A stretch of 21,192 nucleotides of DNA from a virus. Location: the IMG/VR virus record IMGVR_UViG_3300030382_003778, positions 1-21,192 of that record, one strand, 5' to 3'. This document shows positions 127 through 20,761 of the stretch, piece by piece. Each line of letters starts with the position of its first letter. The first letter of the stretch is position 1. The translations under genes were made by a program, and so were the position numbers. The notes below the pieces were generated by a model that had not been told where the DNA came from, made no database searches, and saw only the letters and a program-made list of their open reading frames with translations.

Positions 127-327
127 ATGTATGTAATTGGTAATACTATACTTGGAATCAAGTGTGGAAAAGATAAAACTGAATATGGAGAACATATATG
201 TTTTATAATATTTATGTTCCCACTTAAGATAATATTTTTAGTTGATAATGAATTTACCGATTTTAGAATAGAATTATTTAATAAAATAAGTTTTTCTATA
301 TCATTACAAATTAAGAAGTCTGACTAG
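127..327 (+). CDS. small hypothetical protein, 66 aa, convergent with the virion block
   Basis: I start this frame at the ATG at 127, two bases after the stop of the upstream partial gene. The frame extends further upstream to a TTG at 88, but that would overlap the upstream gene by 37 nt. The predicted protein begins MYVIGNTILGIKCGKDK and has a hydrophobic middle (FIIFMFPLKIIFLVDNEF), followed by a Phe/Ile-rich tail and a basic C-terminus. It could be a small membrane-associated or beta-rich protein. No family is recognised and no good Shine-Dalgarno is visible, so translation would rely on coupling. Its last 17 nt overlap the 3' end of the minus-strand 897-aa gene. An accidental ORF in AT-rich DNA cannot be excluded. 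Confidence 0.4.
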   Translation: MYVIGNTILGIKCGKDKTEYGEHICFIIFMFPLKIIFLVDNEFTDFRIELFNKISFSISLQIKKSD

Positions 328-3004
328 GTAGTTTGGCAAGGGAAGATAATACCTCTGAAGTAGTGTATTTGGATGTGCTTGGTTTACTTAAACCTATACG
401 CCTCCTAGCACTTTTTATCCAGCTTGATGGGTAAAGAGCTAAATAGTGCCTAAGTACATCCACTCCCCTTCCATCTCTTAATGCTGGTAATATCTTATTT
501 TTTAATCTTCCATATTCTGTACTCCACTGGTAATCAGTGTATCTAAGAACATCTTCTGTATTCTCAGCATAATTTACATTACCTAACATTACTCTTGTTA
601 AAGGATCATCCATATCAACAAGACCTTTGGCTATTGAGAAGTATTTGAGATGTCCTATTGTAGGTCCAGTGAATTCAGATAGTAAACCAAATGTAGCTGC
701 TTCTTTACTGTCATGTTCAAGCAGATCTTTTTCTATTCTTGCTATCCTATCTATAGTTTCATTTTCAAGTATATTATTGAAGTTAACATTAAGTAAGATT
801 GAGCTTAACTGTATTAATCCAAACATACCTGCATATCTTAGAAGGTATTGTAATTCAGGAGACCATTCAGCATTTCCTTTTTCAGAGAATGGATTTACCT
901 TTAGATTATATTGACCAGCTAGTATGGATTGCTTTGCTCCCTTTAACTCACTTATATGTGTTTCAAATAAACTTAAAGGATAATGAAGTAAATGAAATGC
1001 TATCTCGCTTATACCCCCACCTACAGATTTCTTGACTATATAAGATTCTCCTATCTCATCAACTATAATATCCTGGCTACCTCTTACATATTTATTTTTA
1101 GCAAATGGAGCATATTCGTATGCCCATCCATTAACCATCTTTAATGCAAAATTCTTAGCAAACCTAATAGATGCAGCATCTGGCTCACCTTTTTCATTCA
1201 TCATGCCAGAAGATCTTAGTTGATGTAATTTTAAGATAAACGATGTTCTGAACATCTTTTTTCTTTGATAATTTTCTGTTAGTCTATGAAAGAATAATAG
1301 CTTACTTAAACTTTTATCTTTCATATTCTCCATCATATCTCTTAATCTTACATCTTTATAATAGAATTGACCATCTTCATCATTAAACCTAAGTTCAGAA
1401 TCCTTATACTTATCTCTTCCAATAGTTCCTTCCATTATAATAGCGGAATCTCTTGGAGTGAACAGGAATCCTTCTTCCTTTTCTACTTTATCAGTAATAG
1501 TTTTTATAACTTCATCCTGATATAATCTATTAGCATTAAGAACATTACCAGCTCCGACCTTAGATAGATAATGACTAATACTTAAAAAGTTTTTCACACC
1601 ACCAGTTACATTTAATCCCATAGTTCTCGCTGTCTGAAATCCATTAATATTTCGTACCATATCATTAACCCATTCTGGTCTACGTCTGGCACCTTCAGTT
1701 GCAACAGCATATTCTTCTATGATAAAACTTCTCATCCCCTGTAAAAATGGAGTATCTCTTGTAGGAACATCCCTCATAGCTTCGAGATAAGCAGCTTGAA
1801 TGTGAATATTTTTATTAAACTGTATAGCATCTCTGGAATATTTCTCAATAACTACAAACGGATCTGTTTCCCACATGACATTGAGATTGCTTTGACTTGA
1901 TGCTTTAGTATTCTCAGGAATATTATTTAGATCTGAGAGTATCTTTTCAGTAACAGTAGTTAGATCACTTAGTTCCTGTATAAGCTTACCTGGATCATTT
2001 TCAGGCAAAATACTTTCAAGTCTTTGTCTGATCTGATGCATAGTTTCAAGAGTAACTTTAGGGAAATAATTACCTGCTTCAATACCCTTTCTTATTCTTT
2101 TACTAGCCGCATCAAGCAAATCAACTAATTGTAAATGTTTATTGTCAAATCTGGAAAACTTATGTATAACAATATCTTGTATTCTATCAAATGATTTAAT
2201 ATTAACATTTCCCATTTTATCCAGTAATTCATGAGTAGCTAAAACTGCTTCTGTGATTTGAGGATCATAATAAACAGTTTCTTCTTTTAGTGTAGATGGA
2301 TCTGTATGAACATATCCTTCAGCAATAGCTTTTCTTAATTCACTAGTTTCACCTTTCTTGCTTTTACTTCTTAATCTAATAAGCCGACTGTACTGATCTA
2401 ATAGTTTTCCCTCATCTTTATTTAGAAATTTTTTAACTTCATTATAAGCATCAACCTCAGCAACTTCATCTTTAGCATTAAATATATCATTCCTTTTTTT
2501 TCTAAATGTTTTATAACTTTTGTTGCCAAACAGTTTACTTCCCATACCTTTCTTAATATGAGCAGATAACATTATATCTCTTATTTCCTGAGTTGAAAAT
2601 TCAAGAAAACTTACTCTATTTCTTTCATAATTCTTCATATTCTCAAGTTTCATAAGAAATTTATTCGATGTAGGATCAAGTCTTGCTAATCCCCTAGGTG
2701 TAGCAAAAAGCCCAGCTATATTTCTAAACCTTCCATTCAGATCTCTATTATATGAATCCATAGCAACTTCAAGCCTGCTCACCTGTTTGTTTGTAAGAGT
2801 ATATTCTGGAACAAATGGCACTTCTAATATATCTTGAGCCCATGACTTTAAATTTCTCTTTGCTATCTCTTTATTAAAGATATCATTATCATTTGTAAAT
2901 CTTTTCCTAATATTTCGTTTATTGCTCCAACGAGAAAAAAGAAGATTTATTCTTTTGGTATTCATGTCTATCTGTGATGGACTAATACATGGTACTAATG
3001 ACAT
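311..3004 (-). CDS. 897-aa large virion/ejection-type protein, partner of the giant polymerase
   Basis: This is the last gene of the minus-strand block. Its ATG at 3004 overlaps the end of the giant gene by 10 nt and is preceded by GGAG at 3014-3017 (9-nt spacer), which fixes the start. The protein is largely alpha-helical, basic at the N-terminus (residues 15-60), with charged helices at 150-220. From about 310 it shows patterns I associate with helical parts of giant phage virion proteins: NYFPK (312-316), a TDPFVVIEKYSRDA helix (about 380-393) and TMGLNVTGGVKNF (461-473). A hydrophobic segment lies at about 718-740, followed by a TGP motif near 779. In some phages comparable regions seem to be fused to the giant polymerase; here the two are separate. 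No enzymatic motif was found. Probable role: internal virion protein ejected with or beside the giant protein. Confidence 0.75.
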   Translation of the reverse strand: MSLVPCISPSQIDMNTKRINLLFSRWSNKRNIRKRFTNDNDIFNKEIAKRNLKSWAQDILEVPFVPEYTLTNKQVSRLEVAMDSYNRDLNGRFRNIAGLFATPRGLARLDPTSNKFLMKLENMKNYERNRVSFLEFSTQEIRDIMLSAHIKKGMGSKLFGNKSYKTFRKKRNDIFNAKDEVAEVDAYNEVKKFLNKDEGKLLDQYSRLIRLRSKSKKGETSELRKAIAEGYVHTDPSTLKEETVYYDPQITEAVLATHELLDKMGNVNIKSFDRIQDIVIHKFSRFDNKHLQLVDLLDAASKRIRKGIEAGNYFPKVTLETMHQIRQRLESILPENDPGKLIQELSDLTTVTEKILSDLNNIPENTKASSQSNLNVMWETDPFVVIEKYSRDAIQFNKNIHIQAAYLEAMRDVPTRDTPFLQGMRSFIIEEYAVATEGARRRPEWVNDMVRNINGFQTARTMGLNVTGGVKNFLSISHYLSKVGAGNVLNANRLYQDEVIKTITDKVEKEEGFLFTPRDSAIIMEGTIGRDKYKDSELRFNDEDGQFYYKDVRLRDMMENMKDKSLSKLLFFHRLTENYQRKKMFRTSFILKLHQLRSSGMMNEKGEPDAASIRFAKNFALKMVNGWAYEYAPFAKNKYVRGSQDIIVDEIGESYIVKKSVGGGISEIAFHLLHYPLSLFETHISELKGAKQSILAGQYNLKVNPFSEKGNAEWSPELQYLLRYAGMFGLIQLSSILLNVNFNNILENETIDRIARIEKDLLEHDSKEAATFGLLSEFTGPTIGHLKYFSIAKGLVDMDDPLTRVMLGNVNYAENTEDVLRYTDYQWSTEYGRLKNKILPALRDGRGVDVLRHYLALYPSSWIKSARRRIGLSKPSTSKYTTSEVLSSLAKLPSQTS

Positions 3005-6000
3005 TTATCATTACTCCATATCTTTTTCATTTTAGGATCAATATCACCACCAAAATTATAGTAGCGTTGCATCTTACCATTACTATCTCTCATTTCTACA
3101 AAATCTCCTCTTCCAGTATAAAATTGTTTAGCCCAATGACTCAGCACTGGATTATGATACCAATCATCCATTAAGGATTGCTTTGTTGTACGGGTAAACT
3201 TATCCCATTCTTCACTGCCAGAAAGCTTCATGGAATTATATCCTTTAACTTTAAAGCTTATATTATCATTTGTATAATCATGAAATGTATTCATATCTTC
3301 AACAATTGATCTTATAATATCTTCAGAAGTTCTTTTACCATCACTGTAGTATTCTGCATTAGTATCTTGACTATCTACTCTCTTTTTAGAAAGCCATTTA
3401 AATATTGATTCAACAAGATGAACATTTGCTTTAAAGTAAGGTGCTTCCATTGATCCATCTTTCCAATATACATTCTGTTGTATCGTTGGTTGTATAAGAT
3501 ACTTAACAATTCCATCTATACCATGCATTTCTATGCTATCAAAAAATTCTTTATTATATAGTTTGTTATGATCTTTAAAAAACTTATCTATCATTGCATC
3601 GGTTTCAACTGAACTATGGTAATAGAAATCCTTCCTATATGCTGGGCTATCCTTAGAGCCATCTAGTGCCTTACTATAGCTTTCTCTTATATTATTCTTA
3701 AGATCTGAAACATCAATTATAAACTTATTAAATAAGAAAGGATTTTCCTGTGGATTGATAAAGAAATCTGCTTTTAGATCTCCCATAATAGTAGCTTTCT
3801 CAAAAGACTTATTCCATCTAGCCTCTGCATCGTCTACAGATTTATATTGTACAGGTTTTGTATCTATAACATATGTATATCCATTTCTAATTCTCTTTCT
3901 CTGACGTTCAATAACATATCCAATATACTCTATACCTGCAGAAGTTTTTCTCTTTCTAAGATTCTTTTCTGTTATTTTACCTGCTATTCTATATAAATTA
4001 CCACTCACAGGAAACTCTTTGTAACTCCAATTAATGTCTTCTTTAGGTTTTGACTGAAAAAATCTATTTAAATGTTTCTCTTTATCAAGTACAAAATCAT
4101 TTACCATCTGTCTATTCAATACATCAGTAACAACTTTCAATACACCTATTCTATCTTGAGCTCTTTCTATCTTATTCTGATCAGGAAAGCTCTCCTTACT
4201 AAGAAGTCTTAGATTTCTCAGTTCACTGGTATACTGGCTATCAGCTACAAACTTTAATATACCACGCATGTTAGCCTTATACATATTAACAGATACACCT
4301 CTTGGAATATCAACAATACTTTCATTCCACATCATCTCTTCAATTTGATCAGGTGTCCAATCTTTAAATGATAGCAGAGTATGTATTTTATTATACATTC
4401 CATTGAAAGATTCAGTTATAATATTTCTCTCACTGTTGCTATCACCTTTATTGACCCTGTCATAGAAGATTGGATTCTTAGATATCTCATCAAGTATATG
4501 TCCACTGACACTGGATTTTATTCCTTCAGTAGTACCATCCTTAAATGTAAACCTCTTCTTCATATGATGTACAGGTATCTCACCATTTCCAAGTAGTTCT
4601 ATTACACTATCAAGATTCCTGCTTTTTAAAACTTCAGGGAAAAAGTAATCACCAATGTTAGATATTATTTTATTATATTCATCATTCTCTCCCTTCTTTC
4701 TATGTCTTCTAGCCTGAGATAATAATCTTCTTATAAGAAATAAATTAGGATCATTATAGAAATCTATTATATCTCTACGAGCTCTACTAACCTCAGATGT
4801 TGTTGGCTGCCTTTTTCCACCTTCATCATATACATCATTATCCATTAGCCTAGCTTTAGAAAGTGTTCTATGCATAATAGAGAATAGACCTCTTTCAAAT
4901 TCAGTACCACCAAACTTCTGATCTGAAAAGAATGAACGTGATGTATGATGCTCACTCGCCTTACCATAACTACCTGTTTGTCCATACAAATAATAGTTTT
5001 CTATTGCAGACAGCTTTTCTGCCAATGATGGACTTCCTTTCCACAGATCAACAGCACCTTGATTTAACTCTCCAGTTCTTTGAAATACTTCCAATGCCTC
5101 AGTTAAAGCTATATCAGCATTTTTCTTAAGAAAATCATTATTAACAAATGACTTCTTATCTAACTGTAACCCAGAGTTTAGTATATAACTCAAAGTTCCC
5201 TTCCTTGATATAAGACTGGACACTATCCTTTTCTTTGTAACTACTTCATTAGCAATCCTATCAAAACCTATTGATTTTATGTCACTACCAGCTTTTCCAT
5301 CAGCTCCTATACCAAACATATTAACCTTATCATTCATAACTATATTTTCTAAAGGTTTATAATCAGTAATATCACCCATATCATTAATATAATCAATCTG
5401 CATTGACTTAGGCATCTTTAGATATTTATATATATGGTCTCCATCATAATCTCTTTGAAGAGTAACCCTGATATCAAATGTATTCAGAGTAGCAAGACCA
5501 TTCTGGCTTTCATCTAATATTTTTTCTATTCTTAACAAAGGCTGATCTTTTAATACTTTAGGGATAGCATTGATACTCATACCAAGCTGTATGTCATACT
5601 CTTTAGCAATATCAGCATATTTCTGTTCTAGTCCTATCTTCCCTGCTTTTTGAAACCACCTCTTACTACCTGGTAACTTAAATGCAGGATCTGATGATTT
5701 TAATAAATTAATAGCATCACCTACATTAGCATTTCTTACCTTTCCTTTTAATGTTTCATGTAGATGCTTGATAGTTCCTTTTACATCTTCAATATTACTA
5801 TCTTTAACATCTACTTTCTCTCCTGCATTTAATCCTTTGATATCTGAACCAGGAGCTTTCTTTTGAAAATTAAGTAGTGAACTATAATGAGATACATTTC
5901 CTTTTTTATCTACCCAATACACAATATCCAATCCAGTATCCTTATCCCTAGCTATGATAGGAATATCGTTTAAGACATCATTACCTAATACCTTTTTAGA

Positions 6001-9000
6001 TAACGCATGTGTAATAGATCCTCCTCCATGCTGATATACAACATCATAATTTGGGTGTGGAGTAAAAGGTGCTAATCCCGTTCCTTTAAAGGTAGCATAA
6101 ACAGGATCTCTTAATGTATTATCTACATCCACAGCACTAAACCCTTCTTCTCCAAATCTTGTAGGTCTCTTTGTAACTATCTTATAAAACTCACTCTGAA
6201 GTAATCTTAATACTGTTTTTTGTAAAAGTATATTAGACTCTCTACCACCATACTTAAGTAAGTCTTCTGTAAGAGTATAGTTATCAGTAGATAACTGCTG
6301 ACCCATCTCTTCCTGTCTTATCTTATATAATGCCCTAAGAAGCTCGCCATTGCCAAGATTCCTATGTTTATTTATATTAGCCATATCTTCTATTATCTTA
6401 TCAATTTGATATAGCTTAACTGCTTTCTTTGTATGCTGGATATTCTGAAAATCAAACATGGATGAAGAATAGTTTACTCCTACACCTTCATGAGAAGTAA
6501 ATGATATACCAAGATTTTCAAATGGAATTTCAATTATATTTCTATTCATGTCAATATTAAGAAGATCCTGTTCCCATCCTGTTGCTAAATCTCTAGCAGG
6601 ATCAATACGATATGGAATAACCTTATCAAGGTTAAGTGTTTTAGCTACTGTCTTTCCAACTAGCAAATCTACACCAAGCTGATCCAATATAGGAGTAATC
6701 TTTGGATCGGAAACTGTATATCCTTTACCAAGCATATCATTATGCATTATAGTAGTTTTTAATCCATTCCATGTCTGATCTGCTCCACCCTTCTTAGACT
6801 TAAGAGAAGCATGTAATCCAGTACTAGCTATTTTCCCTCCATCCATAAAGAATGAATCAAGACTTTTATATTTACCATCTGTTATTTCATTTATAAAATT
6901 AGAAGTTAACCTATCCTGCAGGGTTCCTGCTGGTGATACTCTATTAGTATATTTTTTAATAAGCATCTTTGCATTGTGGAAAAAGTGATTCTCCTTATCT
7001 ACATCTACCTCATCTTCTGCCACTGCTATCCTAAGACTACCTCTATTTAAAAGATCTGTATCATATGCCTTAACTATTGGATCTTGATTATATACAGAAG
7101 ACCATGTCAACGCTTCTCTTGATAACATTGAAGATGTTCCTCCATCTGCAAGATACCCTCTTTTAAAACTATTATATTCCTCTTTGCCTCCTCCAAAAGA
7201 CATCTCCTGTATCATTTTATTAAATTCAGGACTCATTGTTCTGTTATAATGAACAAACAACATCTTTAATCTTAACTTATCATTTGATATAGAAGTACTT
7301 TGTGAAAGATCACCAAATATCTTTTTAAGTGTTCTTAAACTTCTTGGAAGATTATTGTAGTCAGCCAGTTTCTGTTGATAAACTTGTGTAAAGTCATCAT
7401 TAAGTAGTTCAATATTTTCTTTTGTCTTAGGAAATAAAAATCTAAGATAAGGACTTAATCTCATATATACTTTATCAGTTTGTATAGGAGAATCAGGATC
7501 ATAATAAGCTATCTCTTTTAATTCTTCAGCAGAAACAATATTATTAGTTTCCCTAGCTCTTTCATAAAGATTTTCAAGCTTATCCATATCAATAGGTATA
7601 GCTCTGTCAAAGTATGACTGCATCTTTAACCATTCACCACCTACATCTGCAGTTTCATCTAAATTAACAATACGCCCACCTATCTTAGCAGTCCCAGTGA
7701 GAAGAAAATATGTATATTTTTTATCTGGATCACTTGTGTATTCTCTGTCCAATGTCATTATTGAAAGTGATTTACTTATAGGCTTTTCTGATATTCTTAA
7801 CTTCTCATGATCAAGTATAATAACTTTTTTCTTCTGCTCTGTACTAGAGAATATCTTTTGTATTATAGGCTCTGCCTGTGTCTTCTGAAACTTAAGATAC
7901 TCAGCAGCAGCTTTAGTTGGATCATCAGAATATTTAGTTTCTATATCAGCACCTATATATTCCTTAAATACACTTTCTAAAGCCTTTGCTGGATCTGCAG
8001 AAGCAACAGCATTATTCATATCTACAATAAATCTATCACTTGGCTTATTAACATCCTTACTGCTTTGTAAAGAAGGATACTCCATCATCAACTCTTGAAA
8101 GTTTAATGGCTTTTCATTTGGCAACTTATCCCTCTGCATATTATTTAGTATTTCAGAAGCTGTCTCATTAAAAGTTACCTGATGTTGATTAAACATTCCT
8201 GCAGTTCTGCTAACAGTCTTAAGCAAGGTTTCTATATCTCTCCAGTTACCCTCATTGTTGAACTCTTCTACAAGCTTTGATAATGGTACTTCTTTTTCTG
8301 TTAGTTTATCACCTGCTAATTCCTTTAATCCTGTAACTAATTGTTCATATATTTCTTTTGCTTGTGAAAATGAAAGATCAGGGTTTCTCCCTGTAAGATG
8401 ATTGTGAATCTTTATATTTTGCTCTTGTAAAGTATTCTTAAAAAAAGATACCTTATCAACTTCTTTCTGAATAATTGCATCAAAACCAGTTATAACCTCA
8501 CCATATGCTTCTTCACTATAAGTAGCTTTCTGAAGAGTATAGTCACCTATACCCCCTTCCATAGTATCAATTAATCTTTCAAGTTCTACATCAGATGAAT
8601 CAGAAAGCATATTTTTATCTTTCAAATCTTTGTGAAGTATCTTTGTTTCAATTAATAAATCTTTAAGAGTATCAGGATCTAAATCTTTTGCTCTATCAGG
8701 ATCTTTTATTATATCTCCAATCTTAGATATTTTATCTTTTATAGATGTCAAACTGTTCTCTACAAAGCTTGGTTTCTGTAGGTTGTCTAATATATTTGGA
8801 AGATCAGTCAGGAACTCTTCAATTCTACTATTACTATGATGATCAACAAATTCTACCCACCTCTCTAATGGTGTATCTATTCCTACAAGCTTACCTCGTA
8901 TAACCATGCCTGGCTTAAACATGCTCTCGAATCTTCCAATAGATTCTTTTATACTTTTACCTACAGATGCTTCCATTCCTGTAGCGACTATATAGTTATC

Positions 9001-11919
9001 AATAGCACTATCCCTAGGAACAACTATCCTATTAGACCCACCTTCATGTTTTGTATATACTAAGTTTTCTTCTTGAGCTTTCTGAAGTGTTCTGAAAGTT
9101 AATTTATTTCCTCCACTAAAAAGCCTTGCTGAGAATACATCAAAAGCATTTTCGTATAAATTAGACTTCCATTCATACGGTAAGCTAGCCCCCATCTCTT
9201 CTATCTTGTCTGCTAACTCTGTTAATTTTGAATTCTTTATTCCTCTTTTACTCGCTTCAGTAGTTCCAATACCAGTTAGATCTCTCATAAGATCATACAC
9301 AGGTTTTATTATATTTAAGTTTTCAAAAACAGCAGAGTCTTGATCCTGTACTAGTTCATCTCCCCTTTTCCCCTCTATCTCATTTTCAAAGATGGACTTA
9401 TTAAATTTCCCGTTGACACCAAATATTTCTCTCATACCTTCCCTTAGAGCGACAACATTCTGCTTATCAGATTTAATATTAGTAACAACTTTATAAATAT
9501 CATCTTTAGCCAAGTTCCCTCTGATAACATTTATTCCTTTAAGAAATATATTGCTTTCAAATGGAAGATATAGATTATGATGCTGGTATCTTTCTCCAAA
9601 GGCAGTCATAAAATTATTCATTGATTCACCTAAAGCTGCATCATATTGCTCTATAGTCATACCTTTTTTAGCAGCTAAGTCTACAAGAGATTCTCTACTG
9701 TCAATACCACTTAGTACTTCTATCTTAAGAGCACCTCCAAATTGATCCAAAAGATCATTATATCTATTTACATTAGGTATCTCTACCCCTTCAGGAGCTG
9801 TTATCTTTTTAGCAGTAGCTCCAGTACCATCATCGCTAGCTTGAAAAGGAATTTCAAGCTGATCACTTAACTGATTTCCAAAACGCCAATATTCTCCCCT
9901 TACTTCCTGTATAGTTTCATTACCTAAAGAAAACTTTAACTCATTTAGAGTAATTCTATTAATAGGCTTACCACCTATTTCAATGATATCTAAATCTTTT
10001 TTAAGCGTTTCTAAGGTTCTATTGCTAACATTTTCTATATCTATAGGATCATATCTAGCATCAATTTGTTTCTTTAGTCCATTATATACTGTTATTAATT
10101 CTCTAACTTTTGGATATCTTTCAAGGTCTACTTTTTCTCCTGTATCTCTAGACCATCCTTCTCCTTTCTCAAATACAGCATCCAATGTATTAACTATCTT
10201 TTCTGTAGCTTCATTATGTCCATAAAGAACATTTCTACTATTCTGTATATCACTTTCTGATAGTATAGCTAACTGCCTATCTATATTTTTATAGTCTACC
10301 TTAAGAAAGTCAAGAGCTTTACGCATATCTCCATACTCTCTTGATATATAACCCATAGCTTCGGAATGCCCCCATGCACCTCTACCCTTTGTCATCAGTG
10401 CTGCCATAAATAAATGAGAAGATAGTTCCTGTGGACTCATATCATCAAAGGCCCCTGATTGGAAAGCACCGTAATTCATAAACAATATACCAGTACCTAT
10501 TCTTGCTTTAGATTCCCATAAATCTCCAAAATAATTAGTCCTAAATCTTTTTGTTAATTCTTTTGATGTTCCTACTCTCATCTTATTAAGCAATTCTACC
10601 ACATGCTTTAATGGTAATGTGCTTTCTATTTCACCAGTACTTTTATTTAAAGTGTATTTTGCACCTCTCTCTAATTCAGCTTTACCACTATATACAGTAC
10701 CATCTCTCATTTTATAAGACTTATCAGCATGTTTAGATTTATTTATAAGATTTAGATTAGCTCCTCTTACATTAGTTCCATATAACTCTCTAGCAACTAT
10801 CTCTCCTTTTAAACCCTGCTTACTAATCTTATTATAATTTATCTTTCTATATCTTGTAAAGTAATCCTGAATTCCTCTCTTTAATGTTTCCTGACCACCA
10901 CCTCTTATACCTCTTATCAATGGAAATCCTAATGCCATTATCCCTACTGACAGAGGTATTTCGCTATAATTAGCATTAGTATCAACAAGAGGATTATACT
11001 CATCCCTATGTACCATAGACTCTATCTTGGCAGAACCTACAGCATGTAATCCCATATACACTGCATCTTGAGCAAACATACCCAAGTATTTTCGTATATT
11101 ACCAGGATTCTGACCATTTAATCCTATCCTTGTAACCCACTCTCCTATATCATTAACATATCTACCATCTTTTAATCCATCTACATATAACCTTCCTATC
11201 CTCTTGGCAGCACCAGCACCAAAATCTAATCCTGTATCATCAAGTATCTTCTTGGCAACTCCTGCTCCTTGCTGTTCTAGATATCTTATAGCTCCAGCAG
11301 CAGTCTTTGTATCAGCATTTAATGACCTAAGAGAACTCACAGCCTGTCTACCTCTCATTGCTTTAGGCAAATTCTTCTGTAACTGTTTGTTTAAAGCATT
11401 TCTGGTAACCTCATCTATAGCCCCTCTTCTAGCAGCATCTTCTATAACACCTCTTGCCATTAAGGTATCAGTTTTTACTAGATCTTTAGCAGCATTTGTT
11501 ACATATCTATTAGCTCTGAATAATTTAGTTGCACCTCTTCCACCTTTACCTAGGATAGCAAAGGGTCCAACAAAAGGTGCAAATAGTGATAGACCTTCAC
11601 CAGTAACCCATCCAGCCTTCTCCCACTCGGTCATATCATCCCATTTCTTTTCTTCTTTTACAAAGCCAGATGCCCCCCATGTTAACCCACTTACACCTCC
11701 CCATAAGGCATTCCCCATAAACTCAGCTAAAGCATTCTCACTTACAACTTCCTGCTTTACATCATCACCTGCTCTTCTTGCAGCAATATCTCTAAAACTT
11801 AAACGTCCTGGATCAGGTATATCCTGCTGTAATGCAGGAGGGTCAACACCAGTTATGGTGGGATTTATTTCTTTTTGTTTATCTAAATATTCTAGATAAT
11901 CTTCTATAGTGATTGGCAT
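2995..11919 (-). CDS. giant 2974-aa probable virion-packaged single-chain RNA polymerase (DPBB type)
   Basis: Seen: one uninterrupted 2974-codon frame whose ATG lies 13 nt after the previous stop, without a clear Shine-Dalgarno. Residues about 60-130 are hydrophobic and Gly/Ala-rich (GNALWGGVSGLTWGASGFV; LSLFAPFVGPFAILGKGG), as in phage internal proteins that cross the envelope. Residues 2157-2161 read DYDGD followed by HIYKYL, preceded by a PLLRIEKI segment at 2127-2134. Residues 1693-1760 hold a DGG and lysines K1721, K1756 and K1760. Known: DxDGD binds catalytic Mg2+ in two-barrel RNA polymerases (beta', QDE-1, YonO), and crAss-like phages carry such an enzyme in the virion. Inferred: a packaged DNA-dependent RNA polymerase ejected into the host to transcribe early genes. 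No T7/N4-type polymerase motif was noticed. The long flanks may serve packaging and membrane passage. A purely structural protein remains possible if the motif is chance. Confidence 0.8.
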   Translation of the reverse strand: MPITIEDYLEYLDKQKEINPTITGVDPPALQQDIPDPGRLSFRDIAARRAGDDVKQEVVSENALAEFMGNALWGGVSGLTWGASGFVKEEKKWDDMTEWEKAGWVTGEGLSLFAPFVGPFAILGKGGRGATKLFRANRYVTNAAKDLVKTDTLMARGVIEDAARRGAIDEVTRNALNKQLQKNLPKAMRGRQAVSSLRSLNADTKTAAGAIRYLEQQGAGVAKKILDDTGLDFGAGAAKRIGRLYVDGLKDGRYVNDIGEWVTRIGLNGQNPGNIRKYLGMFAQDAVYMGLHAVGSAKIESMVHRDEYNPLVDTNANYSEIPLSVGIMALGFPLIRGIRGGGQETLKRGIQDYFTRYRKINYNKISKQGLKGEIVARELYGTNVRGANLNLINKSKHADKSYKMRDGTVYSGKAELERGAKYTLNKSTGEIESTLPLKHVVELLNKMRVGTSKELTKRFRTNYFGDLWESKARIGTGILFMNYGAFQSGAFDDMSPQELSSHLFMAALMTKGRGAWGHSEAMGYISREYGDMRKALDFLKVDYKNIDRQLAILSESDIQNSRNVLYGHNEATEKIVNTLDAVFEKGEGWSRDTGEKVDLERYPKVRELITVYNGLKKQIDARYDPIDIENVSNRTLETLKKDLDIIEIGGKPINRITLNELKFSLGNETIQEVRGEYWRFGNQLSDQLEIPFQASDDGTGATAKKITAPEGVEIPNVNRYNDLLDQFGGALKIEVLSGIDSRESLVDLAAKKGMTIEQYDAALGESMNNFMTAFGERYQHHNLYLPFESNIFLKGINVIRGNLAKDDIYKVVTNIKSDKQNVVALREGMREIFGVNGKFNKSIFENEIEGKRGDELVQDQDSAVFENLNIIKPVYDLMRDLTGIGTTEASKRGIKNSKLTELADKIEEMGASLPYEWKSNLYENAFDVFSARLFSGGNKLTFRTLQKAQEENLVYTKHEGGSNRIVVPRDSAIDNYIVATGMEASVGKSIKESIGRFESMFKPGMVIRGKLVGIDTPLERWVEFVDHHSNSRIEEFLTDLPNILDNLQKPSFVENSLTSIKDKISKIGDIIKDPDRAKDLDPDTLKDLLIETKILHKDLKDKNMLSDSSDVELERLIDTMEGGIGDYTLQKATYSEEAYGEVITGFDAIIQKEVDKVSFFKNTLQEQNIKIHNHLTGRNPDLSFSQAKEIYEQLVTGLKELAGDKLTEKEVPLSKLVEEFNNEGNWRDIETLLKTVSRTAGMFNQHQVTFNETASEILNNMQRDKLPNEKPLNFQELMMEYPSLQSSKDVNKPSDRFIVDMNNAVASADPAKALESVFKEYIGADIETKYSDDPTKAAAEYLKFQKTQAEPIIQKIFSSTEQKKKVIILDHEKLRISEKPISKSLSIMTLDREYTSDPDKKYTYFLLTGTAKIGGRIVNLDETADVGGEWLKMQSYFDRAIPIDMDKLENLYERARETNNIVSAEELKEIAYYDPDSPIQTDKVYMRLSPYLRFLFPKTKENIELLNDDFTQVYQQKLADYNNLPRSLRTLKKIFGDLSQSTSISNDKLRLKMLFVHYNRTMSPEFNKMIQEMSFGGGKEEYNSFKRGYLADGGTSSMLSREALTWSSVYNQDPIVKAYDTDLLNRGSLRIAVAEDEVDVDKENHFFHNAKMLIKKYTNRVSPAGTLQDRLTSNFINEITDGKYKSLDSFFMDGGKIASTGLHASLKSKKGGADQTWNGLKTTIMHNDMLGKGYTVSDPKITPILDQLGVDLLVGKTVAKTLNLDKVIPYRIDPARDLATGWEQDLLNIDMNRNIIEIPFENLGISFTSHEGVGVNYSSSMFDFQNIQHTKKAVKLYQIDKIIEDMANINKHRNLGNGELLRALYKIRQEEMGQQLSTDNYTLTEDLLKYGGRESNILLQKTVLRLLQSEFYKIVTKRPTRFGEEGFSAVDVDNTLRDPVYATFKGTGLAPFTPHPNYDVVYQHGGGSITHALSKKVLGNDVLNDIPIIARDKDTGLDIVYWVDKKGNVSHYSSLLNFQKKAPGSDIKGLNAGEKVDVKDSNIEDVKGTIKHLHETLKGKVRNANVGDAINLLKSSDPAFKLPGSKRWFQKAGKIGLEQKYADIAKEYDIQLGMSINAIPKVLKDQPLLRIEKILDESQNGLATLNTFDIRVTLQRDYDGDHIYKYLKMPKSMQIDYINDMGDITDYKPLENIVMNDKVNMFGIGADGKAGSDIKSIGFDRIANEVVTKKRIVSSLISRKGTLSYILNSGLQLDKKSFVNNDFLKKNADIALTEALEVFQRTGELNQGAVDLWKGSPSLAEKLSAIENYYLYGQTGSYGKASEHHTSRSFFSDQKFGGTEFERGLFSIMHRTLSKARLMDNDVYDEGGKRQPTTSEVSRARRDIIDFYNDPNLFLIRRLLSQARRHRKKGENDEYNKIISNIGDYFFPEVLKSRNLDSVIELLGNGEIPVHHMKKRFTFKDGTTEGIKSSVSGHILDEISKNPIFYDRVNKGDSNSERNIITESFNGMYNKIHTLLSFKDWTPDQIEEMMWNESIVDIPRGVSVNMYKANMRGILKFVADSQYTSELRNLRLLSKESFPDQNKIERAQDRIGVLKVVTDVLNRQMVNDFVLDKEKHLNRFFQSKPKEDINWSYKEFPVSGNLYRIAGKITEKNLRKRKTSAGIEYIGYVIERQRKRIRNGYTYVIDTKPVQYKSVDDAEARWNKSFEKATIMGDLKADFFINPQENPFLFNKFIIDVSDLKNNIRESYSKALDGSKDSPAYRKDFYYHSSVETDAMIDKFFKDHNKLYNKEFFDSIEMHGIDGIVKYLIQPTIQQNVYWKDGSMEAPYFKANVHLVESIFKWLSKKRVDSQDTNAEYYSDGKRTSEDIIRSIVEDMNTFHDYTNDNISFKVKGYNSMKLSGSEEWDKFTRTTKQSLMDDWYHNPVLSHWAKQFYTGRGDFVEMRDSNGKMQRYYNFGGDIDPKMKKIWSNDKCH
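3014..3017 (-). promoter_or_regulatory. Shine-Dalgarno GGAG for the 897-aa gene
   Basis: GGAG, read on the minus strand, lies nine bases before the ATG at 3004 and inside the last codons of the giant gene. It supports independent initiation of the 897-aa protein and argues that the boundary with the giant gene is a true gene junction and not a frameshift in a single ORF. Confidence 0.7.
5416..5667 (-). other. candidate catalytic barrel (DPBB2) with DYDGD metal-binding motif
   Basis: This encodes residues about 2085-2168 of the giant protein. The triad D2157, D2159 and D2161 lies at 5437-5451 in the context LQRDYDGDHIYKYL. In the superfamily the aspartates sit in a loop of the second barrel, with a hydrophobic stretch after the last Asp. 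Upstream, P2127 and R2130 in QPLLRIEKI are placed like the R-x-P segment that precedes the motif in beta'-like barrels. The motif is seen directly; the fold is inferred. Confidence 0.7.
6625..6867 (-). other. candidate first barrel (DPBB1) with DG and conserved-type lysines
   Basis: This encodes residues about 1685-1765 of the giant protein. It contains FMDGGKIAST (D1693), LKTTIMHNDMLGKGY (K1721) and LDQLGVDLLVGKTVAKTL (K1756, K1760). In single-chain two-barrel polymerases the first barrel precedes the catalytic one by a few hundred residues and supplies lysines that contact the nucleic acid. A DG strand, a K-hydrophobic strand and a 'GxD...K..AK' strand in this order fit my memory of crAss-like and QDE-1-type enzymes. 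This is a pattern-level assignment without an alignment. Confidence 0.45.
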
Positions 11920-11932
11920 TTATTACTATCAA

Positions 11933-13039
11933 CTAATAAAATTCTTGTCTTGGACTAGGTGTACCAACTCCACCACCAAATATAGATTCTTCTTCAGTCA
12001 TCTCATCTATAATTTGACTCTCTATATCAGGTTTCTCCTCAGCACCCTCTTCAGGTGTTTCAAATATTAAAGCATGTAACTCAGGCCATTGTTGTGATAG
12101 TTCAAAGAGATCCCAAGCAGTCAATCCTATACCCAATGCTCCTATTGCAGTAGACACACCCTCAGGTACTATAAAAGCAGTAGCACTTGCAGCTAACTTA
12201 AGTGCCTTTTTATGCAAACCAGCTTTTTTCAATAATGATCCTACTCTCATAGCAATATTAGGTTTCATTAATCGCATAGCCGCATCATCCCATCTCTTAG
12301 ATGCTTGATCACCTAATCTTTCCTTCATTACTTTGACCACTTTTTCACTTGCTACTTTCTTTGCATTATCTGTTCCTTTTTTTAATGCACTATGTGTTAG
12401 TTTACCAGCTGCATGCTTTTCTGTCAAGGCTTTCACAGTAGACTTAGCACCTTCTTCTATTGCTTCTTCTATTACTTCTCCTGCCATACCAACCTTTATA
12501 TTACCTAAGGCATTTGTAACAATACTTTGGGCACCTTTATATGTACCATATGCTGCTAAACCTCCTGCAGTTGATGATGCACCACCTGTCATACCAAGCT
12601 CTTCTTTAGTAAAATCTCTTACCAATTTATTTGCACGCACAGCTAGTATATAGGCTACTCCTTTAGTACCTAACTTTCTTGTCTTAGCACCCCAACCTTC
12701 AGGCCATTTAAAGTTTCTACCTTCAAGCACATTCCCAATACCAATAGCTACAGCAGGTGCTAATTTATCTACAATACCTGAACTGGCTGCATACTCTTTG
12801 GCATCTTCCAGAGAGAATCCTCCACTACCTTCATCTTCACCTTTACCTAAATTTGGAACAGGTAACCCTATTGATGTTCCTGCCCCTTCTAGAGTTAACT
12901 TAAATGCATTCTTAAGTGCTGAGGGAATATTCTCCCATTCTTCTTCCTCTTTAGCTATCTTTTGGACTGCTTTCAGAGAGTCTTCTATCTCACCTTCTCT
13001 CCATAAAGAGTCTACTTTACTAACATTAAAATTTCCCAT
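11933..13039 (-). CDS. 368-aa Ala/Gly-rich probable ejection (internal virion) protein
   Basis: The ATG at 13039 follows a strong AGGAG (13046-13050) that overlaps the TAG of the 416-aa gene. The protein has an acidic, charged N-terminus (residues 15-40), Gly/Ala-rich amphipathic segments at about 90-105 and 150-190, a basic helical middle (200-275), and a hydrophobic stretch at about 280-312 (ALKLAASATAFIVPEG, then GALGIGLTAWDLFEL). It ends in an acidic tail. The composition resembles small phage internal proteins that insert in the host envelope when DNA is ejected. It lies directly upstream of the giant polymerase candidate, as expected for a partner in the same ejected complex. No named family is recognised and no catalytic motif is seen. 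Confidence 0.7.
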   Translation of the reverse strand: MGNFNVSKVDSLWREGEIEDSLKAVQKIAKEEEEWENIPSALKNAFKLTLEGAGTSIGLPVPNLGKGEDEGSGGFSLEDAKEYAASSGIVDKLAPAVAIGIGNVLEGRNFKWPEGWGAKTRKLGTKGVAYILAVRANKLVRDFTKEELGMTGGASSTAGGLAAYGTYKGAQSIVTNALGNIKVGMAGEVIEEAIEEGAKSTVKALTEKHAAGKLTHSALKKGTDNAKKVASEKVVKVMKERLGDQASKRWDDAAMRLMKPNIAMRVGSLLKKAGLHKKALKLAASATAFIVPEGVSTAIGALGIGLTAWDLFELSQQWPELHALIFETPEEGAEEKPDIESQIIDEMTEEESIFGGGVGTPSPRQEFY

Positions 13040-13045
13040 TATAAT

Positions 13046-13050
13046 CTCCT
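13046..13050 (-). promoter_or_regulatory. Shine-Dalgarno AGGAG for the 368-aa gene
   Basis: AGGAG lies six bases before the ATG at 13039 and is partly formed by the TAG stop of the preceding gene (AAATAGGAGATTATAATG). It is among the strongest ribosome-binding sites in the block, consistent with high expression of the 368-aa protein, and it decides the start. Confidence 0.75.
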
Positions 13051-14299
13051 ATTTATTTGAAACTGCACTAAGTTTTTTCTTAAAATCTTTTAACGTACCC
13101 TGATCTCCAAACATATTTTTATACATTTTCATTATAATTTCCATATTATCATCTATATAACTTTGTAACTCTAAACTCGAATCAACTTTTACAGCTTCCA
13201 TATATGAATTTCTAATAGTACTCTCAAAAGGATCTTCTGTTGCTCCCATTATATATTCTTGATATATAAATTGTTCAGACTGCGAAATGTCTATATTAAA
13301 TAACTCTTTTAAATTAGTTTGCCAAGCAGCTTTAGAAATTGGATCTTGTTCTGATTCCCATTCTTGTTTCCATTTTGTTACATACCTAGTCAATCCTACT
13401 TTATCAGGAGTAGCCGTTGATAAACTTCCAATTGTAGTATGAAGATTTATCACTTCTGCATATTTTTGTTCCAATGTAGCACCTGGGAGTAAGAGATCTC
13501 CAACATGATAAGGTTGATCTTTTTCATTATACATAGTAGTAGCAAACTCTTTAACAGTCTTATCGCTCTCACCAGCTGTTGACTTAATATCAGCCATATC
13601 CATCTGTCTCATAAACCTACTGTTTCCAAGAGTTAAAGCTGATTCAATAGTTTTTAATGTTTCTTGTGTAGTCTTTATATCCTCTTCTTTAGCAAGTGAT
13701 TGCTGCCTTAATAATTCCATACTTCTTAAGAATTGAGGACTGGTAAGTAAAGGATTAGCTGTTAATATCTTTTCCATTAGTTCTTCATCTATTCCAAATT
13801 GAGAACTAAGAACTTCAGGTGTTACATCTCCTGCTTCATATCTAAGTGGATCATCTCCATACTCATAACCAATTGAACCTATATTTTTCTGTACTCTATC
13901 AGCTGCAGCTAATTCCATTACAATATTTTTACCTTGAATATTATAGAAATCAATTTCCTTTTCCTTTGATTCTATAGTATTTTTATAGTCTTGCATTATA
14001 TCGCCAGAAAGATCAACAGCTTCTCTTGTATATTGAGGATTATTTGGATTAGCTCCAAATATACTTTCATGTATAATACTTTTTTCACCATAATCTGCCT
14101 TTAATCCACGCAAATCACTTTTTGCATCTCTTAATTCTCCAGCAAGTAAATTAAGCTGAGCTAACCTATCACTTTCTTTTTTATCTTCTTTTCTTTCCTT
14201 ATTTTTCATAAGATAAGTAATAGCTAATTTAGAAAGATCATTAATAGTATCTCTCCTCCCATAGTTTAATTCAGGGGACAATACTTTAAAAGGAGGCAT
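13049..14299 (-). CDS. 416-aa alpha-helical probable virion protein
   Basis: The start codon shares a base with the stop of the 61-aa gene (TAATG), so translation is probably coupled. The protein begins MPPFKVLSPELNYGRRD. It has strongly charged, coiled-coil-prone helices at about 30-70 (KNKERKEDKKESDRLAQLN), 105-135 and 185-225, with no hydrophobic membrane segment and no cysteines. A helical fold with an acidic C-terminal half is predicted. It sits between the S74/CGGC genes and the ejection genes, so an internal core or scaffold-like role in the virion is plausible. It is not recognisably a tape-measure protein: no long hydrophobic helices, and too short. The family is unknown. Confidence 0.65.
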   Translation of the reverse strand: MPPFKVLSPELNYGRRDTINDLSKLAITYLMKNKERKEDKKESDRLAQLNLLAGELRDAKSDLRGLKADYGEKSIIHESIFGANPNNPQYTREAVDLSGDIMQDYKNTIESKEKEIDFYNIQGKNIVMELAAADRVQKNIGSIGYEYGDDPLRYEAGDVTPEVLSSQFGIDEELMEKILTANPLLTSPQFLRSMELLRQQSLAKEEDIKTTQETLKTIESALTLGNSRFMRQMDMADIKSTAGESDKTVKEFATTMYNEKDQPYHVGDLLLPGATLEQKYAEVINLHTTIGSLSTATPDKVGLTRYVTKWKQEWESEQDPISKAAWQTNLKELFNIDISQSEQFIYQEYIMGATEDPFESTIRNSYMEAVKVDSSLELQSYIDDNMEIIMKMYKNMFGDQGTLKDFKKKLSAVSNK

Positions 14300-14484
14300 T
14301 ATCTTATATTCCCGTTTTGTATTTTATCAATTGCTTCCAAAGCTTTATACCTAAACTTATCATTTAACCAATCACGTCTTTTAGTACATCCACCACACTC
14401 TTTTATTCTGCCACCAGATACCTTCTTGATAACATTTGATACTGTATCTCCTAATCCCTTACTCTTATAATTCTTATAAGTCAT
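14299..14484 (-). CDS. 61-aa basic protein with GLGDT and CGGC motifs
   Basis: This short frame is bounded on both sides by TAATG stop/start overlaps, which is good support for a real gene. The protein reads GLGDTVSNVIKKVSGG near residues 10-25, then ECGGCTKRRDWLNDKFRYKA. The combination of an N-terminal GLGDT, an amphipathic helix and a CGGCxxRRxxLNxxF segment recurs in small proteins of structural modules in many phages, as I recall. The two cysteines alone would not complete a zinc site within one chain, so dimer-shared metal binding or a disulfide is possible. Function unknown; probably a minor virion or assembly protein. Confidence 0.7.
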   Translation of the reverse strand: MTYKNYKSKGLGDTVSNVIKKVSGGRIKECGGCTKRRDWLNDKFRYKALEAIDKIQNGNIR

Positions 14485-15668
14485 TATACTTCTACAAAAT
14501 CTACATCTACTTTAGAATAATCTACTGCAAGATATCCATCAGGCATTACTACTGAAGCATTAGGTACCTCATCTGCCATAACTCCTTGATATCTTTTACC
14601 AGGATAACTTTTATAATTCCATTGATATACATTTATACCACTAGAAGATTTTCCTACAAGTTCTATATTTTCTTTTAACCTTCTATCGGAAGATGTTCCT
14701 AGAATAGAAGTATATCCCCACCCTGGTGACGTGCCTGGTGGTGTTGGTGTAACTCCATAGTCGGGAGAAGTAGGTCCGATAGTGATATTGGGGTATGTAA
14801 GAAGCCCTGTACCTCCACCAACATCATACTCAACTTCTGGATCTAATGGAGGAGTCACAAGACCGTATCCTTCCAATAGTGTATCCCTTATTTCCATAAT
14901 AGCTTGTATCTGAGGATCAATGATATTTGAATCTAGAGGCGTGGGAGGATCTATTGTACTATCACACCGTCCATTTGCACAACTTCCAAAGGCACCACAA
15001 TCAGCATCAGTATCACACTCATGAAATATTCCACTTAAAAGTAAGTCATCTAAAGTTTGACGTTCTCCTTCCTTCCAATCATATCTGAGATCATAAATAC
15101 CAAGTTCTAATTTTTCATAAATATCAGTAACAGCATCTCTATGTTTTCTTGCTTCAGTATCAATAGATTGTTCATACACAGATTTGGATGCCTTTCTTCC
15201 ACTACGATATCCTTCCATGATATTACTTTCAGCAGCTCCAATTCTTTTCTCCAGTCCTCCGTGGTAAAACATACCAGTTTTATCTCTTGCAGTTGTTTTA
15301 TCTGCTCCTAATTTCCCATAAGCTGCTTGAGATTTTAGACCAGTCTCTTCATATTCTAATCCCAAAGTTTCAGATAATTGTTTTTGTAATAATTCCCAAC
15401 CTTCTCCCAGCTGAGATACATCTCCAAGAGCATGCCTTTTAAGTATATCCTCTTTCTGTTTTATATAAGGATCAAAGTGGCGTGCATACTCAAGTTCTGG
15501 AGTAGCAGGATCATCTTCCCACGTAGTCCCCTCAAGAGCTTCAGAAAATCCAAGAGATTCTATAGTACCTGGAAAATCTTCTGAACCAACTTCTGATGGA
15601 GTATATATACAAGCCCCTGTTACAGGGTCTTCAGAATAATTTGGTCCTAATACAGAACAATCAGCCAT
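14484..15668 (-). CDS. 394-aa virion protein with Cys-rich motif and C-terminal S74 chaperone domain
   Basis: The start at 15668 follows GAAGG. Residues 60-215 are helical and charged; four cysteines lie at 218, 224, 230 and 235 (C-x5-C-x5-C-x4-C), then a Pro-rich linker (about 238-320). The C-terminus matches the peptidase S74 / intramolecular chaperone family: SSDRRLKENI at 326-335, then INVYQWNY, GVMADEVP and VDYSKVDVDF. In that family a Ser-Lys pair five residues apart cleaves the chaperone off once the trimeric fibre has folded; S327 and K332 have that spacing. The protein is therefore probably a trimeric tail or appendage component, although its body does not look like a beta-helix. Some short S74 tails are not cleaved, so self-processing is a prediction. 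TAATG couples it to the 61-aa gene. Confidence 0.8.
   Translation of the reverse strand: MADCSVLGPNYSEDPVTGACIYTPSEVGSEDFPGTIESLGFSEALEGTTWEDDPATPELEYARHFDPYIKQKEDILKRHALGDVSQLGEGWELLQKQLSETLGLEYEETGLKSQAAYGKLGADKTTARDKTGMFYHGGLEKRIGAAESNIMEGYRSGRKASKSVYEQSIDTEARKHRDAVTDIYEKLELGIYDLRYDWKEGERQTLDDLLLSGIFHECDTDADCGAFGSCANGRCDSTIDPPTPLDSNIIDPQIQAIMEIRDTLLEGYGLVTPPLDPEVEYDVGGGTGLLTYPNITIGPTSPDYGVTPTPPGTSPGWGYTSILGTSSDRRLKENIELVGKSSSGINVYQWNYKSYPGKRYQGVMADEVPNASVVMPDGYLAVDYSKVDVDFVEV
14487..14690 (-). other. S74-type intramolecular chaperone domain
   Basis: This encodes residues 327-394 of the 394-aa protein. Key residues are S327 and K332 in SDRRLKENI, the aromatic strand INVYQWNYKSY, GVMADEVP and VDYSKVDVDF. 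At about 68 residues it is near the usual core length of the family and it sits at the extreme C-terminus, as is typical. Confidence 0.8.
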
Positions 15669-17056: not shown

Positions 17057-20000
17057 TTATTTCACTGGTTTTAATCTATATACTATTGATATATCGTTGA
17101 CCTCAAATCCTTCTGGAGTTTTCCCAATTTTGAATTCAGATGAACTATCTGGATTGGTACCCCATGTGGCTACAGTTGCTACTTTTGTACTTCCAACATA
17201 ATCAGTAATAGTCCTGACTTGCCCCAGACCAGTACCTGCATTAAGTACCATTACATAGCCATTATAATAGTCATTAGAAGCATTAGCTCCTGCATCCAAT
17301 GTAATTGTTGTACTAGCTCCAGCTTGAGCAGTTCCAGTATGTATATTTGAATTTTTGCCAATCCTTAATCGGAAAGACTTTATATTATTAGATTCCGATG
17401 TAGTATCTGGCTTCAATTCTGCTACCTGCCATCCATTTGCAGCACCAAGTTTACCGCTAGTAAAATTAGTACCATCCTGAAAATCATATGGAAATGTAGT
17501 TCCTCCATCAACATCATAATCAACATTTACATTAGGTATCACACTACCAGAAGAAGCAGTTTTGTATGTTATATATACTTTGTAAACTTTCTTTCTTACT
17601 CCTGGATGCCCAAAATCTATATCCTTAGTAATAATTTCCAAATCATCAGCTAAACAAAATTGACTTGCATCATTCCATTTAACTACAGTTCCATTTGTAT
17701 AAGCATACACCAAATCACCATTCCAATCTGTAGTAAAGTTCGTTTTGACTATATCAATTATTCTGGTTCCCATTCCCTGATCTGATCCTTTAACCCATGA
17801 CTGAGTAACTATATCATAAAGAAACATTCGTGGATCATTAGTACTTCCACCTTTAATATCATCAAAAACTACTAACTGCCTTTTTTTAGGAAGATATCCA
17901 ATCATTGGAGTCAATTCAGTATCGGTACCACTACCGTCTAAATTTTTATCAGCAGTTAAAAAATTAATCCAGTCACTTTCCTTTATTATCTGCCTACCTT
18001 TCTTCTCAAGTAAGTTAGTTACATTCTTACCATCATATAAATAACATCCAAATTTATTAACCCATGCTATACCAAAGTCAGTCTTGCAAGTAGCAGAAGG
18101 ATGAGATACTCCTTTATGCAGAAATGTTTCTTCTAAAATTTCAAGTCCTTGAGATACATTAATCAAATGCATTTTTCTCTTTTTAAACTGTAGTATTCTA
18201 TCTGCATATTCTTCAAGCTTTACTATTTCATCTCCATCACTTACTGAGGCTTCAATTCTATTAAATGATGGAAATACATCAAGCTTACCATGAGGAGACC
18301 TAATCATTGCATCGCCTTTAACTTCAATAGCATTACCATCCAAATCTTGCAGTTCGACATTACCTATATATGCACGTCCTCCAGCAACTACAGCAGTTTT
18401 AAATTTTGAAACAATACTTATTTCTTCTTTTGAAATATAAGAACTATCCTCATATGTAATTACATCTGGAGGAGATAACAGTCCAGTATAACTAATATCC
18501 CAAAAATAGTATGACTGATTTGCAGGATCACCAAGGAATCCAGCATCATATTCATTTCCTGTACTCGTAACTTTAAATTTTCCTGTAGTAAAACTACCAG
18601 TCCCTAACAGAAACCATGGTTCTGTAGTCTCTAATGCTAAATTTTGAACATATATATTTACTCCAACAATTCTTTTATTCCAACCAACTACTAAATCATT
18701 AGGAGAAGCAACAGCTATAAGCATACTAGGACTTAAATCGTCATTAGGAACATTTAGTGTTGTAGTAGAACCATCAGCATGATCCAATAATTCTGTAATT
18801 TGGCTTTCCTGTGATGAAGGGTGTCCATATTCTTCATCATATACAAAGGTTGATCCTATCTTCCATGCACCTTCATTAGCAGCATTATTCCATCCAGTCC
18901 CATCAGCACTACTCCATTGACATATTACAATAACATTATTCGCACTAGCGTATCCATTAGTTAAATCACCACCACTATCAAGCTCAGGAAATGCACCAGA
19001 TTCATAAACTGTTGGATAGTTATTTAATTGAACACTCGCAGCACCAGCACTTGCACTTATACTAATTTCGACTCTAAGCACATCATCACTTCCACTTCCA
19101 GACCCCCAATCTTCACCTACATCAGTTTTTGTAACATCAAACCAAATATTCCTTTGAAAAGCATCATATTCTGTCCCCCCTGTATTATTCACATTATATG
19201 TAACATAAGTTTGTGTTAAGCTTCCCTCAAGCCAAGCACTAGCATCATTATCATAAGGTCCAGCCTGTATTGTAGTTGTAACTATAGCAATCCAAGTACT
19301 ATATCCTATTGTATAAGGAACGAGTACTTTAAAAATTGATCCATCAGGATCTGCAAATGCATTTGCTATATCATCTCTTGTTTCATATAATACATTAGCA
19401 CCACCTGATGTCTCAAGTAAGTCTGTAGACCCCGATTCTAAATTACTAGAATAAGTAAAATCAGTATAAAAATAAGAAGCACTTGGAGGTAATATTGATT
19501 GTACAGTGTTAAACCATTGATCAATTTTATATGAATTACCAGTATTATCAAACCAAGTTTTCTTTATATATCCATACCACACATTAGGATTAGTTGACCC
19601 AAAATTACCATCACTTATTCTTAACGCCCCATTTGCATAATAAAAACAGGGAGCAAAACTATTAGTGTCACCCATAGTTATAGTCTGAGTTGCACTCCAA
19701 GTACCTCTGTTTTTACTATATATATACAAAGCAGGATCACTACTTTCATCATCCGCTAATACTAAATAGTCATCTCCAGTCTCAGCAGCTTCAGCTATTA
19801 CAAGTGAAACATTATCAATATTGAATGCTGCACTGCCTGAAGATGCAACATCTATTGTGAATGGCTGGTCTGTGTCTGAAGCATGAGATAAAAATGTAAC
19901 CCTATGAGTTCCATTAGTTTTTACTAAATCTGTATTAGCAGCTGCAAATTGATTGCCTGTACCTAATATTCTTAGTGTAGTAATAGTATCAGCAACACCA

Positions 20001-20494: not shown

Positions 20495-20761
20495 TTAGAA
20501 TATCTTCCACTTTAAGTTAATTACTGACTTAAGTACGTCTAGTACCTCTTTCATGATCTTTTTCTTTTCATCAGCATCAAGCTTGCCATCAGCATATGCT
20601 TCTTCTAAAGTCCTAGCTACGTCACCTATTTCTTTCATCATTGCCTTATATCTGCTAGCCATCAAAGTAGCTATACCAGCCAGTATAAGACCTACCAGAT
20701 AGAATAGATTAGTCCAGCTAAAGTAGTCTGAAAAGAAACCTGCCATTATTAGTTGGTCCAT
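20495..20761 (-). CDS. 88-aa single-helix membrane protein
   Basis: The start at 20761 is fixed by AAGGAG (20770-20775) with an 8-nt spacer; a second Met at codon 6 has no such site. The chosen start overlaps the phosphoesterase end by 13 nt. The protein has one hydrophobic helix at about 17-36 (TNLFYLVGLILAGIATLM). A basic turn and a long amphipathic helix follow (GDVARTLEEAYADGKLDADEKKKIMKEVLDVLKSV). The DGKLDADEKKKI segment resembles the loop-helix found in small phage membrane proteins. It may be a holin-type or virion-associated membrane protein; neither is demonstrated, and no lysin gene is adjacent inside the window. Confidence 0.7.
   Translation of the reverse strand: MDQLIMAGFFSDYFSWTNLFYLVGLILAGIATLMASRYKAMMKEIGDVARTLEEAYADGKLDADEKKKIMKEVLDVLKSVINLKWKIF

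Follow-up and report, generated by a model that had tools for sequence, protein, structure and literature searches.

The question raised by this locus is whether its largest gene encodes an RNA polymerase that is carried in the virion and ejected into the cell. The window (the whole stretch of DNA analysed) comes from an uncultured virus, is 21,192 bases long and has all major genes on one strand, and its largest open reading frame (2995..11919, minus strand, with an ATG start at 11919) encodes a protein of 2974 aa. The initial annotation had reported DYDGD at residues 2157-2161, followed by HIYKYL, as the metal-binding loop of a polymerase, and the minus-strand translation (...NTFDIRVTLQRDYDGDHIYKYLKMPKSM...) bears out the letters, with D2157 at 5451 and D2161 ending at 5437; D2157, D2159 and D2161 (5437..5451, minus strand) are the residues proposed to bind the metal. 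Taken alone, this motif is weak evidence, suggestive only and proving little, because D[FYL]DGD arose by chance in 1.7% of composition-matched shuffles of the 2974-aa protein; it is conservation across homologues that makes it significant. The protein had no match in Pfam, PHROGs, NCBIfam, the PDB sequences or the genomes of isolated phages (INPHARED), and the silence of PHROGs is uninformative, since the established gp66 of phage phi14:2 is likewise without a PHROG hit.

Relatives of the giant protein were searched for in viral contigs, where the early scans returned none or a single one (L002, with the motif DFDGD and 65% identity along the whole protein). The exact pattern DYDGDH[IVM]Y retrieved mostly unrelated proteins; a codon-biased D[FY]DGDH pattern opened the family, with homologues down to approx. 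22% identity, and alignment-based scans raised the set to 21 viral records besides that of the window, with circa 16 distinct sequences and identities that go down to 20–25%. The complete homologues, found in circa 20 uncultured phage contigs, are 2930–3070 aa long, while scans of bacterial and archaeal genome contigs gave none. In the literature searched, which included few subscription papers or preprints, there was no earlier description of this family.

The initial annotation depended on the three aspartates being shared by homologues, and all 16 distinct sequences covering the motif do have D2157, D2159 and D2161, while the residue between the first two drifts (Y, F, H, N, M or G). Some of the homologues were fetched via the neighbouring patterns NxYDLRV or AIPK, with no requirement for DxDGD, so their aspartates were not forced by the selection of the search; in these the middle residue is H (L131, L132, L134, L135 and L136), N (L137), M (L185) or G (L189). 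By conservation scoring, the most conserved block of the protein comprises residues 2149-2162 (DIRVTLQRDYDGDH; 5434..5475, minus strand), and residues 2149-2160 top all 12-residue windows (0.85 versus a mean of 0.41). The upstream element AIPK..D....R (residues 2118-2130; 5530..5568, minus strand) is also conserved and, by way of a bridging homologue described below, it can be aligned with the R-x-P region of the crAss-like enzymes.

The second most conserved part of the protein is the N-terminal region of residues 74-516 (10372..11700, minus strand), which is possibly involved in packaging or ejection. The initial annotation had likened the N-terminus to that of an ejected protein, which holds as far as the Gly/Ala-rich composition and the mildly hydrophobic stretches are concerned, but not for a clear membrane helix, which is absent (maximal Kyte-Doolittle value 1.42). 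Since the N-terminal half is conserved too, the protein could be thought of as a giant ejected virion protein whose ancestral polymerase barrel is only a structural relic. However, none of the three metal-binding aspartates is replaced in the family, although the middle residue changes freely, and a remote homologue has DYDVD; strict aspartates with a free middle residue are the pattern predicted by selection for catalysis, and we therefore regard a relic as highly improbable and prefer a working enzyme.

In order to examine the fold, AlphaFold2 was applied to the putative polymerase core, residues 1480-2660 (3940..7482, minus strand), with 16 sequences, which gave a mean pLDDT of 72.5 and a pTM of 0.69. 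When this model was compared with the PDB, the sole hit below 0.001 was 6vr4_A, the virion RNA polymerase of phi14:2 (E 3.5e-6, prob 1.00), with a long alignment and a poor superposition (TM 0.23, rmsd 26). The significant matches in the viral library BFVD included the crAss phages cr118_1 and cr272_1 and several viral proteins, and cr118_1 independently carries a gp66 homologue, as found by tblastn. We take the training set of the structure-prediction network to predate the release of 6vr4, which makes recall of this structure by the network unlikely.

A trimmed model (residues 1660-2280), meant to better the superposition, had lower confidence (pLDDT 60), while residues 1923-2166 have a pLDDT of mostly 70–95 in both models. 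Among the best 50 PDB matches of the trimmed model there are only RNA polymerases, essentially largest-subunit chains (Pol I, II, III and IV, bacterial, archaeal, ASFV, AR9, phiKZ and phi14:2); none of these hits is individually below 0.001 and they are mutually redundant, and yet such exclusivity in a predicted model would be hard to explain by chance. Residues approx. 1923-2166 (5422..6153, minus strand) are thus predicted to form the DPBB-A barrel. The initial annotation had placed a double-psi barrel around residues 2085-2168; the model does put an RNA-polymerase barrel at the motif, although the confident region is longer than was claimed. It could still be argued that DYDGD is a chance occurrence in an ordinary virion protein of the internal or tape-measure-like kind, as the motif does appear in shuffles and unrelated proteins with DYDGDH exist. 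We rejected this, and a tape-measure-only protein with it, as scarcely credible, on account of the family-wide invariance of the aspartates, the top conservation of the motif block within the protein and fold matches that are exclusively RNA polymerases.

The second conserved block, residues 1686-1760 (6640..6864, minus strand; S..DG...NG.K...KG...AK), has invariant D1693, G1694, G1711, K1721, K1732 and K1760, and may be the lysine-bearing second barrel (DPBB-B); it is strand-rich in the core model and of low confidence in the trimmed one. A helix of 30 residues past the catalytic loop (residues 2220-2249; 5173..5262, minus strand), seen in the secondary structure of the model, is a plausible candidate for the bridge helix by its position, and neither conserved lysines nor a long helix are peculiar to polymerases.

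A polymerase of the T7/N4 type was also considered and rejected, as the giant protein has no Pfam match and its fold matches are two-barrel enzymes. The N4 virion RNA polymerase has a T7-like single-subunit fold, unlike our protein, whose model matches two-barrel enzymes only. The two still have in common that the N4 enzyme is giant, packaged and ejected by a short-tailed phage (PMC10136315), as we propose here. QDE-1 and YonO share the two-barrel single-chain plan but are not virion proteins, and QDE-1 is absent among the listed fold matches of our models.

Comparison with the polymerases of crAss-like phages at the sequence level gave a less direct answer. Phi14:2 gp66 has GSDFDIDKMY as its motif (1361-1365), and D[FY]D[IV]D recurs in eight relatives. 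The initial annotation had suggested a profile comparison with gp66, but the direct similarity is not significant: hhalign of the whole core of our family against the crAss polymerases gave a prob of 0.1, and the motif region, although it aligns motif on motif (28% identity over 40 columns), reached only E 0.07–0.47, with a reversed-template control nearly as good as the true template (13.8 versus 15.9). Because the whole-core comparison is null and the reversed control scores so close, this profile evidence is weak and we do not rely on it; the assignment as a polymerase rests on fold and conservation. The polymerase families in the study of P23-45 are reported to be likewise without sequence similarity outside the DxDxD region (PMC10770324).

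A bridge is offered by a second giant protein of 3028 aa in the viral contig G012 (L150, L151; locus 58952-70939, minus strand). It is a remote homologue of our family (hmmsearch 6.8e-6, hhalign 9e-5), without BLAST similarity to it and not selected by motif, which has DYDVD at the aligned place and matches the crAss RNA polymerases motif on motif with E 0.002–0.008. It is followed by an ORF of circa 965–970 aa, of the same kind as the partner of the giant gene in the window (see below). The contig itself is 104 kb long and consists of two alike halves of circa 52 kb, each with a giant protein and then an ORF of approx. 970 aa, a layout that could reflect prophages in tandem, a chimera of the assembly or the doubling of a genome plan. 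Taking the fold and the conservation together, the 2974-aa protein is almost certainly a two-barrel polymerase.

Whether such a polymerase is packaged was judged from the gene neighbourhood, in which all genes named here are on the minus strand. Directly downstream of the giant gene lies a gene for an 897-aa protein (311..3004), which is its constant partner: genes for proteins of approx. 900 aa are present in 12 of 14 records, and in the window and the 12 relatives compared the gap to the giant gene is at most 96 nt. Homology of the 897-aa protein to phi14:2 gp65 or gp67 was tested and not found. In one relative (L134, record G004) the match to the partner gene, of circa 880 aa, has one in-frame TGA, possibly a sequencing error or a boundary effect.

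On the other side, the giant gene is preceded by a gene for a Gly/Ala-rich protein of 368 aa (11933..13039), by position and composition a candidate cargo or ejection protein, with a 40% identical counterpart in L002, and by one for a 416-aa protein of the same block (13049..14299), 26% identical to its counterpart there. A small ORF of 61 aa (14299-14484) is 75% conserved in L002, where both of its neighbours are only 26–28% conserved. The next protein, of 394 aa (14484..15668), is a virion protein with a C-terminal S74 endosialidase chaperone (Pfam PF13884), and matches phrog_6121 (virion structural protein) and phrog_4287 (DNA ejection protein). A protein of 1122 aa (17057..20425) is probably a tail protein, judging by its position, with a C-terminal part weakly like a protein of Microcystis phage Mae-JY22. 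The block ends with a metallophosphoesterase gene (20749..21192; phrog_7339), whose 5' end is cut by the contig; a gene of this kind adjoins the tail block in phi14:2 and in the longer relative G009 as well. Next to the window's metallophosphoesterase gene, a membrane protein of 88 aa (20495-20761) has a single hydrophobic segment at its N-terminus and a tail that is charged and helical; it looks holin-like, yet in PHROGs and Pfam the tail matches CII-like regulators. In G009 the block runs on to the major head protein, portal and terminase, so the initial placement of the giant gene in a virion block is borne out by its late-block position.

We consider it unlikely that the giant protein is a two-barrel RNA polymerase made during infection and left out of the virion, acting, e.g., on late genes, even though non-virion two-barrel polymerases do occur in phages (P23-45 gp64, AR9 and phiKZ; PMC10770324). 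The giant gene lies within the block of late structural genes and has the same orientation as those for tail and head; a large N-terminal part is fused to the core, as is often the case in known virion polymerases (PMC10770324); and gp66 of phi14:2, encoded in an equivalent place by tail and cargo genes, was detected in virions by mass spectrometry. Gene position and precedent therefore point to packaging and ejection of the giant protein, and the proposal of a candidate virion RNA polymerase is well supported by the conserved aspartates, the predicted barrel and the virion block. With good confidence, though less than for the polymerase assignment itself, we suggest a single-chain two-barrel DNA-dependent RNA polymerase, packaged in the capsid of a phage of the short-tailed type and ejected with or ahead of the genome.

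The nearest known system is the polymerase of phi14:2 and other Crassvirales, which provides the best and only significant structural match (6vr4_A), is a giant single chain with a D-x-D-x-D motif and shows a comparable order of genes, from the metallophosphoesterase through tail genes and large cargo proteins to the polymerase and a large protein downstream of it. The differences are that gp66 has 2180 aa and our protein 2974, that the motif is DGDH in the giant family and D[IV]DK in the crAss enzymes, that the downstream 897-aa protein is unrelated to gp65 by sequence, and that family contigs with complete late blocks are approx. 45–56 kb, not circa 100 kb. Portal, terminase and head protein of G009 fall in PHROGs different from those of phi14:2 and have only distant relatives among isolated phages. 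Membership in the Crassvirales was rejected on these head genes of G009 (the window itself has none); by the same genes the family would lie outside that order, and it is invisible to current annotation. The initial annotation had suspected a divergent lineage, and the divergence from the crAss-like enzymes stands, but size alone is no sign of it, since crAss-like polymerases reach circa 6000 aa (PMC10136315). The giant protein very likely founds a previously unannotated family of packaged polymerases outside the crAss-like phages.

A further parallel is found in gp96 of Thermus phage P23-45, a virion RNA polymerase fused to a tape measure and found by the same DFDGD logic (PMC10770324); there too the polymerase is hidden in a giant virion protein and recognisable only by its DFDGD. 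Unlike here, the polymerase is N-terminal in a tape measure of 5002 aa in a long-tailed phage, while in our short-tailed-type phage the core occupies residues approx. 1480-2660 of 2974, and no sequence relation of gp96 to the giant family was found, nor was a tape-measure match seen in the giant protein.

To hypothesize on the mechanism by analogy, the giant protein would be kept in the capsid, be ejected before the DNA or together with it and then refold; crAss-like polymerases are virion cargo that is ejected via the tail, probably in a partly unfolded state, and their transcription of early genes is resistant to rifampicin (PMC10172136, PMC10136315). The DYDGD loop of barrel A (D2157/D2159/D2161) would hold the catalytic magnesium opposite barrel B with its lysines (K1721/K1732), and early phage genes would be transcribed by this enzyme independently of the host RNA polymerase. 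Packaging, ejection or promoter recognition is probably the task of the circa 1500 residues that precede the core and of the adjacent 897-aa protein.

Several other polymerase candidates came up in the scans. A phage protein of 1066 aa (L010:4197-7394:-) with ADFDGDHIYG, matching two PHROGs without an assigned function (phrog_8308 and phrog_25339), possibly represents an unannotated single-chain RNA polymerase family. Proteins of approx. 900–1000 aa with LSGADFDGDHV(L/V)VIPN, present in many viral contigs (L037, L050, L051, L064, L068, L088 and others), are candidates for a further two-barrel family, judging by this motif. An ORF of at least 3173 aa (L069:2-9520:-), with EHAMNLDFDGDHITFHAD near its N-terminal end, is possibly another giant polymerase-bearing phage protein. 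Lastly, a structural protein of the isolated Flavobacterium phage Fpv1 (L175:2-9007:+), which is classed outside Crassvirales, matches phi14:2 gp66 and has DYDID, so that this cultured phage apparently has a polymerase of the gp66 kind.

Only a few groups of phages are known to package two-barrel polymerases in the virion, and sequence divergence conceals these enzymes. The family described here extends their known spread beyond Crassvirales, and its DYDVD homologue bridges the DGD-type and the crAss D[IV]D-type active sites. We put forward, quite tentatively and at somewhat less than even chances, that these giant ejected two-barrel polymerases form an ancient lineage of their own, which arose before Crassvirales or in parallel with it. 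Together with the partner of circa 900 aa they would make up a minimal packaged transcription system in phages of only approx. 50 kb, and their DGD and DVD forms would connect the D[IV]D motif of the crAss enzymes with the DGD of the cellular ones. Judging by this family, an ejected enzyme of circa 340 kDa may be within the capacity of small phages, and the many family sequences allow tests of how large enzymes are threaded into cells and of how two-barrel polymerases evolved.
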